Positions 43,663 to 46,036 of a stretch of DNA of 64,000 bases are shown here, one piece after another. The DNA comes from Tritonibacter scottomollicae (GTDB lineage: Bacteria > Pseudomonadota > Alphaproteobacteria > Rhodobacterales > Rhodobacteraceae). Each line of letters begins with the position of its first letter. Position 1 is the first letter of the stretch. The DNA is taken from contig NZ_PVUF01000017.1 in assembly GCF_003003215.1 (NCBI RefSeq), forward strand, positions 1 through 64,000, written 5' to 3'. The notes beneath the pieces are model-generated. The model saw only the letters and a program-made list of their open reading frames with translations, ran no database searches and was not told the origin of the DNA. Position numbers and translations under genes: made by a program.

Positions 43663-44757
43663 TTATCCTGCGAGGCGCGCGCCGCGGGTGCGACGGGTGT
43701 CCACCGCTTTCGCCAGTTTGCGCAGCTGGATTTCCGTTTCCTCCCAGCCAATGCAACCATCAGTCACCGACTGGCCGTAGGTGAGTTTCGACAGATCCCC
43801 GTCCTTGGGCAGATCCTGACGGCCATGCACAAGGTGGCTTTCGATCATGATACCGGTGATGCGGGTTTCGCCCTGCGCCATCTGATCGGCCACATCCGTG
43901 AGCACCTCGGGCTGTTTGGCCGGGTCCTTGGCGGAGTTGGCATGGCTTGCGTCGATCATCACCTGCGGGCGAATACCGTCTGCGTCGGCCTTCTGGCAGG
44001 CGGCATCGATGCTGGCCGCGTCATAGTTGGTGCCACCGCCCCCGCGCAGGATGATGTGGCAATCGGGGTTGCCCGCAGTGGCCGCAATCGCCGCGAGGCC
44101 TGAGGGCGCCAGCGCCATGAAATGATGCGGTGTTGCGGCAGAGCGCACCGCGTCGATGGCGATCTGCACATTGCCGCGGGTGCCGTTCTTGAACCCCACC
44201 GGGCAGCTTAGGCCCGAGGCCATCTCGCGGTGGATCTGGCTCTCGGTGGTGCGCGCCCCGATTGCGGCCCAGCTCACCAGGTCGCTGATGTATTGCGGTA
44301 CCGAGGCATCGAGGAATTCGGTCCCCACAGGCAGGCCCATCTCGCTCAGGTCGAGGCAGAGTTTGCGCGCGGTCGACAGCCCCTTGTTGATGCGGAAGGA
44401 GCCATCGAGGTTGGGATCGTTGATCAGACCCTTCCAGCCCGCGATGGTGCGGGGTTTCTCGAAGTAGACCCGCATCACGATCTCAAGCTGGTCGCCCAGC
44501 TCGGCGCGCAATGGGGCGAGGCGGCGGGCGTAGTCCAGTGCGGCCTCTGGGTCGTGGATGGAACAGGGGCCGACCACCACGACCAGCCGGTCATCCGCGC
44601 CATGCAGGATCTTTTGAATGCTGGCGCGGGATTTCAAAACGGTGTCGCGCGCAGCATCGGTGAGCGGATGCTTCACCGCGAGGGCTTCGGGGCAGATCAA
44701 TTCCTGCATATCTGTAATCCGGAGGTCATTGGTGGGTGTCTGGGACAGGGTGGTCAT
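43663..44757 (-). CDS. aroG: 3-Deoxy-7-phosphoheptulonate (DAHP) synthase, class I
   Basis: The start at 44757 (MTTLSQTPTNDLRITDMQEL) gives 364 residues. Class I AroG/F/H features are present: VVGPCSIHDPEAALDYA, MRVYFEKPRTIAGWKGLIND, VGFKNGTRGNVQIAIDA and VMIDASHANSAKDP. It makes the first committed compound of the aromatic pathway from PEP and erythrose 4-phosphate. A 26-codon aromatic-rich leader frame and a terminator precede it, implying attenuation by the supply of charged Phe, Tyr or Trp tRNA. Which aromatic amino acid inhibits the enzyme cannot be told from the sequence. Confidence 0.93.
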   Translation of the reverse strand: MTTLSQTPTNDLRITDMQELICPEALAVKHPLTDAARDTVLKSRASIQKILHGADDRLVVVVGPCSIHDPEAALDYARRLAPLRAELGDQLEIVMRVYFEKPRTIAGWKGLINDPNLDGSFRINKGLSTARKLCLDLSEMGLPVGTEFLDASVPQYISDLVSWAAIGARTTESQIHREMASGLSCPVGFKNGTRGNVQIAIDAVRSAATPHHFMALAPSGLAAIAATAGNPDCHIILRGGGGTNYDAASIDAACQKADADGIRPQVMIDASHANSAKDPAKQPEVLTDVADQMAQGETRITGIMIESHLVHGRQDLPKDGDLSKLTYGQSVTDGCIGWEETEIQLRKLAKAVDTRRTRGARLAG

Positions 44758-44806
44758 GGGCGTGGATCCTTTGGCGGGTGCCCCTGTCGGACCTCTGGAC
44801 AACAAA

Positions 44807-44833
44807 AAACCGCCCTTGGTCCCGGGGCGGTTT
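44807..44833 (-). terminator. Attenuator terminator ahead of the DAHP synthase gene
   Basis: Read on the minus strand, AAACCGCCC pairs with GGGCGGTTT across a 9-nt loop and is followed by a T run ending at 44804, a textbook rho-independent terminator. It lies between the leader peptide stop (44867) and the aroG start (44757), so it would stop transcription before the gene unless an alternative fold forms. TTCTGGT-type codons of the leader (44917-44923) are complementary to 44843-44849 just before the terminator, and GGCGG in the leader can pair with the terminator's first arm. Confidence 0.85.
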
Positions 44834-44866
44834 GGTGCGGTATTCTGGTGTTTCTGTCAGTTCAAT

Positions 44867-44944
44867 TCAGAAACGCGAAGACCCTCCGTCCGCCATGTGG
44901 CGCGGATAAAAGTAATACCAGAACTGGGCGAACTGTTGGGTCAT
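44867..44944 (-). CDS. Aromatic-rich leader peptide of the DAHP synthase gene
   Basis: The open frame encodes 25 residues beginning MTQQFAQFWYYFYPRH and ending with a final Phe: eight of the 25 are Phe, Tyr or Trp, with six in a row of seven (F8 to Y13: FWYYFY). Ribosome stalling there when charged aromatic tRNAs are scarce would favour an antiterminator over the terminator at 44807-44833. There is no Shine-Dalgarno sequence, and the best promoter places the transcript start at or next to the ATG, so translation may be leaderless, as described for trpL of Sinorhizobium meliloti. The ORF is too short for ordinary gene finding. Confidence 0.8.
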   Translation of the reverse strand: MTQQFAQFWYYFYPRHMADGGSSRF

Positions 44945-44951
44945 GGGGCGG

Positions 44952-44980
44952 ACGCTAGCGGAGATTCGCACATCTGTCAC
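44952..44980 (-). promoter_or_regulatory. Candidate promoter of the aroG leader
   Basis: On the minus strand GTGACA (44975-44980) and TAGCGT (44952-44957) are separated by exactly 17 bp. A start site six to eight bases on would fall at 44944-44946, that is, on the leader ATG. Both hexamers are moderate matches. Confidence 0.45.
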
Positions 44981-45136
44981 CCGGAAAAACATCTCCCCTC
45001 CCCCGGCAACCCGATCGCCATCCGGCGCGTCATCCCGTTACCGTCAGCCCGCCTGCCAGAAACAGCCAGTAAACCTACCGGCGCTGGACGCGGCGCCCGT
45101 TACCGCTATCCTGCACGACAAACGAGGAGGATTTTC

Positions 45137-46036
45137 ATGCGCATTCTGTTCACCGGAGGGTCCGGCAAGGCCGGGCGCCACGCCATCGCATACCTGCTGG
45201 CCCAGGGGCATCGGGTGGTCAACGTCGATCTCACGCCACTGGACCTGCCCGGCGTCGACAATCGCATCGCCGATATGACCGACGCGGGCCAGATGCATGA
45301 CGTGATGCACGCCTGGGCCGGATATGACGAAATGGACGACCACCGCAGCCCGCCCCCCTTTGACGCGGTGGTGCATTTCGCCGCCGTACCGCGCCTGCTG
45401 ATGAAATCAGACAACGAATGCTATCGGATCAACACCATCGGCACCTACAATGTGATCGATGCGGCGTTGAAGGCGGGCGTGCGCAAGGTGATCTTTGCGT
45501 CCTCCGAGACCACCTATGGCGTCTGCTTCGCGGGCGGCGAGCGCAAGCCGGAATATCTGCCCATCGACGAGGAGCACCCCGTGGTGCCGGAGGATTCCTA
45601 TGCCATGTCCAAGGTCGCAGGTGAGGTCACCGCGCAATGCTTCCAACGGCGCACGGGCGCAGACATCTACGGGCTCAGGATCAACAATGTGATCGAACCG
45701 CACGAGTACAAGGCGAACTTTCCAGCCTATATGGCGGACCCCGATTTGCGGCGACGCAATATCTTTGCCTATATCGACGCCCGTGACCTCGGCCAGATGG
45801 TGCAGTGCTGTCTGGAGACCGACGGTCTGGGCTATCAGATCTTCAACGTCGCCAATCCCGATCACTCGGTCAACTGGCCGACGACAGAGCTGATCGCGCG
45901 CTATTATCAGGGCGTTCCGGCCCGCGACATGGGCCCGCGTGAGACCTTTTATTCAATCAAAAAGGCCCGTGAAATGCTTGGATTTGCGCCGAAGCACAAC
46001 TGGCGCATGTACCTCGACGACCCGCGCGAGGTCTGA
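45137..46036 (+). CDS. NAD-dependent epimerase/dehydratase
   Basis: The ATG at 45137 follows GAGGAGG. The 299-residue product has the Rossmann motif FTGGSGKAGRH (5-15), ASSETTYG with the catalytic Thr/Ser region, and YAMSK (YxxxK, Tyr and Lys of extended SDR enzymes). C-terminal features resemble sugar-nucleotide epimerases, but no substrate can be named. It is 80 bp ahead of the GcvT-like gene, on the same strand. Confidence 0.85.
   Translation: MRILFTGGSGKAGRHAIAYLLAQGHRVVNVDLTPLDLPGVDNRIADMTDAGQMHDVMHAWAGYDEMDDHRSPPPFDAVVHFAAVPRLLMKSDNECYRINTIGTYNVIDAALKAGVRKVIFASSETTYGVCFAGGERKPEYLPIDEEHPVVPEDSYAMSKVAGEVTAQCFQRRTGADIYGLRINNVIEPHEYKANFPAYMADPDLRRRNIFAYIDARDLGQMVQCCLETDGLGYQIFNVANPDHSVNWPTTELIARYYQGVPARDMGPRETFYSIKKAREMLGFAPKHNWRMYLDDPREV

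Follow-up and report, generated by a model that had tools for sequence, protein, structure and literature searches.

The aroG gene of Tritonibacter scottomollicae is very probably controlled by a ribosome-mediated transcription attenuator carried on a leaderless mRNA, as judged from sequence comparison and RNA folding calculations. The gene lies on the minus strand of the 64 kb stretch of contig NZ_PVUF01000017.1 that was analyzed, here called the window; coordinates below refer to the window and to its minus strand unless stated otherwise. Upstream of the gene are clustered aromatic codons, a terminator between these codons and aroG, and a computed antiterminator that excludes the terminator.

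Layout of the aroG leader region

We identified the product of aroG (43663-44757; 364 aa) as a type I (AroFGH family) DAHP synthase (NCBIfam TIGR00034, 513.6 bits for a cut-off of 173.2). A Shine-Dalgarno-like AAAGGA (44767-44772) precedes the gene. Further upstream is a leader ORF of 25 codons (MTQQFAQFWYYFYPRHMADGGSSRF, followed by a stop codon; 44867-44944). Its codons 8-13 (44906-44923; Phe8, Trp9, Tyr10, Tyr11, Phe12 and Tyr13, or FWYYFY) are the candidate regulatory codons and, with all six frames of the window considered, form the only run of at least six aromatic residues. No such run occurred in 30 dinucleotide shuffles of the window, and shuffling the surrounding 223 nt 5000 times yielded no run of at least five in the three forward frames. 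An intrinsic terminator (44807-44833) was identified between the leader ORF and aroG. It has the 5' arm AAACCGCCC (segment 3; 44825-44833), which includes CCGCC (44826-44830), a 9 nt loop and the 3' arm GGGCGGTTT (segment 4; 44807-44815), with a T tract at 44804-44809. The list produced by a simple scanner, which accepts loops of 3-8 nt only, does not contain it. A first-pass annotation of this DNA had proposed the aromatic frame, the terminator and a DAHP synthase as the downstream gene, and all three are borne out. The divergent gene (45131-46036, plus strand) encodes an NAD-dependent epimerase/dehydratase-like product that falls below every curated NCBIfam cut-off.

From the leader, the terminator, the promoter position and an exclusive pairing whose conservation and spacing to the codons emerge from sequence comparison and computation, we infer a start site, translation, stalling and a response to each amino acid along the following lines. 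The A of the leader AUG would be the first nucleotide of the transcript, and a ribosome would load at this 5' end. When aromatic aminoacyl-tRNAs are plentiful, the ribosome would pass the aromatic core, cover segment 2 (which contains GGCGG) and reach the stop codon; the CCGCC arm would then form the terminator with its 3' partner, and RNA polymerase would halt before aroG. A shortage of charged tRNA for Phe or Tyr (or for Trp, with a weaker effect in this strain) would stall the ribosome on codons 8-13 with its front edge just short of GGCGG, which could pair with CCGCC to form the antiterminator, and aroG would be transcribed.

Occurrence of the leader and terminator

We compared 125 aroG loci, comprising the best 80 of 590 confirmed matches and 45 from family, class-wide and genus genome samples (the same species may be present more than once). 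Leaders were recognized by a fixed rule (a frame that starts with ATG, has 15-40 codons, lies within 300 nt and has F, W or Y at four or more of seven residues). In this set, which includes the best 80 of 590 matches, a leader was found at 91 of the 125 loci: 58 alphaproteobacterial, 7 from Xanthomonadales and 26 others (23 with Burkholderiales names), grouped by record title and kinship. Conservation of the aromatic codons in relatives had been suggested earlier as a check on the sensor reading, and we identified Phe, Tyr and Trp together in 74 of the 91 leaders; the remaining 17 contain Phe and Tyr only. Using one terminator rule for all loci (260 nt upstream, at least five pairs including four GC, loop of 3-12), we identified an upstream terminator at 90/91 leader loci (the exception is L056) versus 3/34 others (L062, L069 and L108). 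Among these 34, the upstream sequence is truncated at L058 (43 nt) and at L099 (145 nt, including the remnant of a terminator). Neither a leader by the frame rule nor a terminator was found at the aroG loci of enterics, Vibrio and Actinobacillus in the set.

Several loci are unusual. L056, from a record labelled as an Anaerolineae MAG, has an aromatic leader before aroG and lacks a CCGCC-type terminator; transfer or misbinning is possible. At L108, the leader situated about 255 nt 5' of aroG is degenerate (MNAARTLSARFYPRSIAGGIRGA, FYP), and only Phe-Tyr remains in it. This locus retains a promoter-like stretch and the terminator, and may be a decaying sensor. The aroG matches of L102 (G671:C116:5820-6869) and L106 (G421:C34:4009-5067) each contain one stop (TGA and TAG, respectively). 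Their attenuators look intact, and the stops may reflect broken genes or errors of assembly, or may simply be where the genes end.

The type I enzyme is patchily distributed. Counting the window's own genome in each case, it was identified in 17 of 394 sampled genomes of the family and in 14 of 385 genomes of the class-wide sample. Within the genus of the window it is present in 17/18 genomes (the remaining genome is 67% complete), and the leader precedes aroG in all 17 that have the gene. The window's genome also encodes one type II DAHP synthase (G000:C5:210490-211800; L098). No aromatic leader was seen within about 600 nt upstream of the type II gene or of trpE in this genome. At gathering scores, Rfam models matched only a tRNA in the window, and none matched six of the 125 aroG loci at E values up to 0.5.

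Predicted antiterminator pairing

Segment 2 (GGCGGACGGAGGG; 44882-44894) lies within the leader ORF and contains GGCGG (44890-44894). This motif is identical to the core of the terminator 3' arm and can pair with CCGCC of the 5' arm. GGCGG is usually read in the frame xxG GCG Gxx. Counted from where the last aromatic codon of the core begins, the distance to GGCGG is 14 nt in 49 loci, 20 nt in 18 and 17 nt in 9, a total of 76/91. Both GGCGG and CCGCC are invariant in an alignment of 31 Rhodobacteraceae sequences; in the Devosia loci (L003-L005) segment 2 is weaker or displaced.

The pairing was evaluated with permutations that ignore phylogeny. Across 56 non-redundant loci, segment 2 pairs with its own terminator arm at -13.48 kcal/mol, compared with -12.50 +/- 0.19 kcal/mol for swapped arms (0 of 10000 permutations as good), and locus by locus the pairing is better than 95% of shuffles in only 30/56. 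The pairs that flank GGCGG:CCGCC covary: both form in 26 of 62 unique loci versus 13.4 expected (0 of 5000 shuffles, again ignoring phylogeny), and, taken one at a time, the pairs are present in 48/85 and 43/85 loci. Six of the 91 loci have no motif and were left out of this count (L003, L004, L005, L028, L056 and L111). Examples of covariation include CUGGCGG/CCGCCAG in Burkholderia, CCGGCGG/CCGCCGG in L060, L097 and L109, and CAGCGG/CCGCUG in L095.

Segment 1 (GTTCGCC; 44927-44933) can pair with segment 2 if it is free of the ribosome (duplex of -12.2 kcal/mol). Over 55 loci this pairing is stronger than in shuffles (-11.8 versus -9.4 kcal/mol), and the comparison of own with swapped partners is marginal (0.047). 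The stop codon follows GGCGG at a distance of 25 nt in 52/91 loci; at this distance, a ribosome that pauses on the stop may leave GGCGG uncovered. The predicted antiterminator of the window also contains a small hairpin with arms GTTTCTG (44868-44874) and CAGAAAC (44850-44856). Both arms come from the computed fold; in the alignment, judged by eye, the 5' arm is shared by close relatives only. Shine-Dalgarno-like words occur between the core and the stop codon in 47/58 alphaproteobacterial, 5/7 Xanthomonadales and 23/26 other leaders. Such a word inside the leader ORF (44882-44894 in the window, and in relatives) might slow the ribosome.

The first-pass annotation had chosen a different alternative fold, between 44917-44923 in the aromatic core and ACCAGAA (44843-44849). 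The 7 nt complementarity is present, but as a conserved antiterminator we rejected it, and GGCGG:CCGCC takes this role instead. At the window the best duplex between core and downstream region has -9.6 kcal/mol, a value equalled by 5% of shuffles. In 17 non-redundant Rhodobacteraceae loci, own partners give -7.8, shuffled -5.8 and swapped -8.1 kcal/mol, with 4/17 loci beating 95% of shuffles. The values in 41 other loci are -5.7, -5.8 and -5.1 kcal/mol, respectively (4/41 beat 95% of shuffles). This may be an accessory pairing in some roseobacters. By eye, a downstream AUACC is common to many roseobacters.

Predicted response to ribosome position

We used a thermodynamic folding model in which only RNA ahead of the ribosome is allowed to pair. 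The folded stretch began 13 nt ahead of the A-site codon and extended through the terminator 5' arm; the readout was the probability that CCGCC is paired upstream. Across 55 loci, a ribosome whose A site occupies one of the last seven core positions gives a probability of 0.94-0.99. The value declines to 0.77 one codon past the core, to 0.33 four codons on and to 0.15 once the stop codon is reached. Codons 5' of the core give 0.64-0.92, and without a ribosome the RNA is ambivalent (0.53). Because pairing is also high before the core, the model marks a downstream edge rather than a peak: it predicts that the end of the aromatic core is the edge past which stalling would no longer antiterminate. 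With assumed ribosome edges of 11-15 nt the drop persists, moved by about a codon. Shuffling the spacer lowers the probability from 0.97 to 0.64, and the real spacer gives the higher value in 55/55 loci.

At the window locus itself, the probabilities are 0.43 at Phe8, 0.44 at Trp9, 0.97 at Tyr10, 0.99 at Tyr11 and 1.00 at both Phe12 and Tyr13. Past the core they fall to 0.76 at Pro14, 0.17 at Arg15 and 0.28 at the stop. The model thus predicts for this locus a full response at the Tyr/Phe codons 10-13 and about half a response at Phe8 and Trp9. The folds of the window are only mildly better than those of shuffled sequences (z of -1.6 and -1.75): the antiterminator region has -22.3 kcal/mol (10/200 shuffles as good) and the released region with the terminator -16.7 kcal/mol (8/200 as good).

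Candidate regulatory codons and the amino acids they may sense

The codons of 30 family leaders of 24-25 codons were aligned (one of 31 was dropped for its length). Codon 9 is Trp (TGG) in 30/30 of these alignable leaders, and Trp occurs somewhere in 34/34 family leaders. Codon 8 is Phe in 26 and another residue in 4. At codons 5 and 10-13 Phe and Tyr interchange: codon 5 is Tyr in 13, Phe in 14 and another residue in 3; codon 10 is Tyr in 28 and Phe in 2; codon 11 is Phe in 18, Tyr in 11 and Ser in 1; codon 12 is Phe in 15 and Tyr in 15; and codon 13 is Tyr in 25, Phe in 2 and another residue in 3. The third positions of the Phe/Tyr codons are variable. It seems that selection preserves aromatic character more than the identity of the residue, as would be needed for a shared sensor.

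It had been suggested that the single peptide senses all three aromatic amino acids. The mixed codons recur in relatives, consistent with this idea; sensing as such is still inferential, and the model is weak at Trp here. The half response predicted at Phe8 and Trp9 leaves equal sensing of the three amino acids unsupported at this locus. A serious, if somewhat less probable, alternative is that the attenuator effectively senses only Tyr and Phe in this strain, with the Trp codon kept for RNA pairing or for other reasons. In the model, Trp9 reaches only 0.43-0.47 at this locus and in six close relatives, compared with 0.97-1.0 for codons 10-13, and 17/91 leaders have no Trp at all. Nor need every codon sense, since the Tyr codon of Corynebacterium glutamicum aroR is described, in the passages cited, as conferring no control by Tyr (PMC11802643). 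The invariance of the Trp codon in family leaders argues against this alternative, as do the values for Trp elsewhere. Among the genus loci the Trp codon reaches at least 0.58 in 10/17, of which 7 have at least 0.93. Averaged over all loci, the model gives 0.89 for Trp (71 codons), 0.96 for Phe (222) and 0.98 for Tyr (216).

Candidate promoter and predicted leaderless start

The candidate promoter consists of the -35 element GTGACA (44975-44980), a 17-nt spacer and the -10 element TAGCGT (44952-44957), which ends 7 nt 5' of the leader ATG. This spacing places the predicted start site on the A of the ATG (44944), and no Shine-Dalgarno sequence was found 5' of the ATG in the window. The promoter is as the first-pass annotation described it, and its leaderless reading gains support from comparison. 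A generic sigma-70 scan lists no promoter at 44952-44980 because TAGCGT is a weak -10 element.

For 45 non-redundant loci of the 58 from Alphaproteobacteria, we searched for the best sigma-70-like pair with a -10 element ending 3-13 nt before the ATG. The mean score is 8.27 of 12; shuffled sequences average 4.72, and none of 200 rounds of shuffling exceeded 5.27. Of the 45 loci, 39 match the strict pattern nnGACA-N17/18-TAnnnn-N6..8-ATG (the exceptions are L073, L084, L094, L100, L101 and L111), and 37 of these 39 have a 17-nt spacer and 6 or 7 nt to the ATG. Where a leader has two in-frame ATGs (L089 and L119), the promoter matches the upstream one. Shine-Dalgarno-like words precede the leader in only 1/58 alphaproteobacterial loci (L096), 0/7 Xanthomonadales and 0/26 others. 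By contrast, a looser motif set identified such words at 37/58 alphaproteobacterial aroG starts. In Xanthomonadales, TATCAN occurs 7-9 nt 5' of the ATG at all seven loci, where the -35 boxes are weak. A leaderless start at the leader ATG is strongly supported by these comparisons, and the start site itself is predicted from promoter spacing.

By eye, TTATAA- or TTATAG-like boxes were seen about 27-46 nt before the leader ATG in several Burkholderiaceae/Oxalobacteraceae loci (L017, L020, L021, L022, L039 and others). These leaders, though they have no Shine-Dalgarno-like word, may belong to leadered mRNAs. Transcription from upstream of 44944, with the leader translated from an ordinary 5' UTR, seems unlikely for the window locus. 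The start site is a prediction and leadered versions may exist where such upstream boxes occur, but the strict promoter 6-8 nt from the ATG, the scarcity of Shine-Dalgarno-like words in all three groups and the TATCAN boxes of the Xanthomonadales all favor a start on the leader ATG.

The leaderless attenuator RNA transcribed from the trpL ATG of Sinorhizobium meliloti (rnTrpL), also alphaproteobacterial, is similar in the description given in the passages cited (PMC7298713, PMC10117765). The window locus shares with it promoter spacing that puts the start on the ATG and the absence of a Shine-Dalgarno sequence. The trpL leader differs in being a Trp leader of trpE(G), with no DAHP synthase.

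Probable action in cis and the RNA element

We built an RNA model (R1) from 31 family leaders and searched 295 family genomes. All 13 matches lie just upstream of a type I aroG gene (one is weak, with an E value of 0.0026), and no copy was found before any other gene with the strict filters used (up to 10 candidates per genome), which divergent copies would escape. Four of the 17 aroG genomes in the family sample (G138, G234, G340 and G374) are not among the matches. A function in trans, either for the peptide or for the leader RNA of about 140 nt that termination would produce, is quite improbable, whether in addition to attenuation in cis or in its place. Both the rnTrpL RNA and the peTrpL peptide of S. 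meliloti are described as acting in trans in the passages cited (PMC7298713, PMC10117765). Here, however, the peptide shares little between clades beyond the aromatic core and the residues encoded by GGCGG (by eye), and R1 located the element before aroG only. An ordinary terminator combined with a fortuitous aromatic frame has a negligible chance of being the explanation: the simple terminator scan is silent at the site and about one hit is expected by chance in the region, but tens of divergent loci share the leader, terminator, spacing and promoter, and the aromatic run is absent from shuffles.

Relation to known attenuators

The aroR-aroF attenuator of C. glutamicum is reportedly the subject of work by Neshat et al. 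in 2014. As described in the passages cited, it likewise places an aromatic-codon leader (Phe-Tyr-Phe) before a DAHP synthase gene, and stalling raises transcription (PMC11802643, PMC4046766). By the same descriptions it differs in being actinobacterial, in having no Trp codon named and in responding to Phe and not to Tyr, although a Tyr codon is present. The window locus has the corresponding features, a DAHP synthase target and Phe/Tyr codons in the leader.

In E. coli, the attenuators of pheL-pheA, trpL-trpE and pheST are leadered. The ilvGMEDA and thrABC leaders of this organism each carry codons for several end products, which are branched-chain amino acids or Thr/Ile and not aromatic amino acids. 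The pheL-pheA, trpL-trpE and pheST systems combine leader codons, an antiterminator and a terminator, as here (PMC11802643, in the part cited), and differ in responding to a single amino acid and in having other targets.

Attenuation before type I DAHP synthase genes of Proteobacteria has been predicted in other lineages. A table from the Merino database has attenuators before Vibrio aroA(I alpha, Tyr)-tyrA (the aroF-tyrA operon; PMC1173090), and regulatory RNAs or attenuators were predicted before Shewanella aroF and aroH (PMC2659441). The passages cited describe neither a mixed Phe/Tyr/Trp leader nor a leaderless start for these, and the Vibrio case concerns the aroF-tyrA operon. The same enzyme family is controlled for the same purpose by repressor proteins elsewhere, with TyrR predicted to act on aroG in Vibrionales and TrpR on aroG in Pasteurellales, according to the passages cited (PMC5343134). 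The parts of the open-access literature consulted describe no leader that mixes Phe, Tyr and Trp codons ahead of aroG in Alphaproteobacteria, Burkholderiales or Xanthomonadales; an earlier prediction elsewhere is possible. DAHP synthase attenuators and the leaderless trpL were known already, and the loci compared here probably form a class that has all three aromatic amino acids in one leader and is leaderless in Alphaproteobacteria.

The chances seem about even that these loci represent a widespread class of proteobacterial attenuators. In such a class, one leader would read three aromatic amino acids as an OR gate before the committed step of the shikimate pathway, and codon order would grade the response. 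The mRNA would usually be leaderless in Alphaproteobacteria and Xanthomonadales, with repressor control instead in enterics and vibrios.

Significance

The attenuator would provide control of the type I enzyme in a roseobacter whose genome also encodes a type II DAHP synthase, upstream of which no such leader was seen. In E. coli, monitoring of the three aromatic amino acids takes three DAHP synthases and two repressors; in the present case a single RNA leader could do this for one gene. Loci of the same architecture from Alphaproteobacteria, Xanthomonadales and Burkholderiales (Rfam matched none of those examined) are a ready set of natural codon-order variants. These may allow tests of how a multivalent attenuator weighs its inputs, and of whether leaderless initiation is a regular attenuator design.
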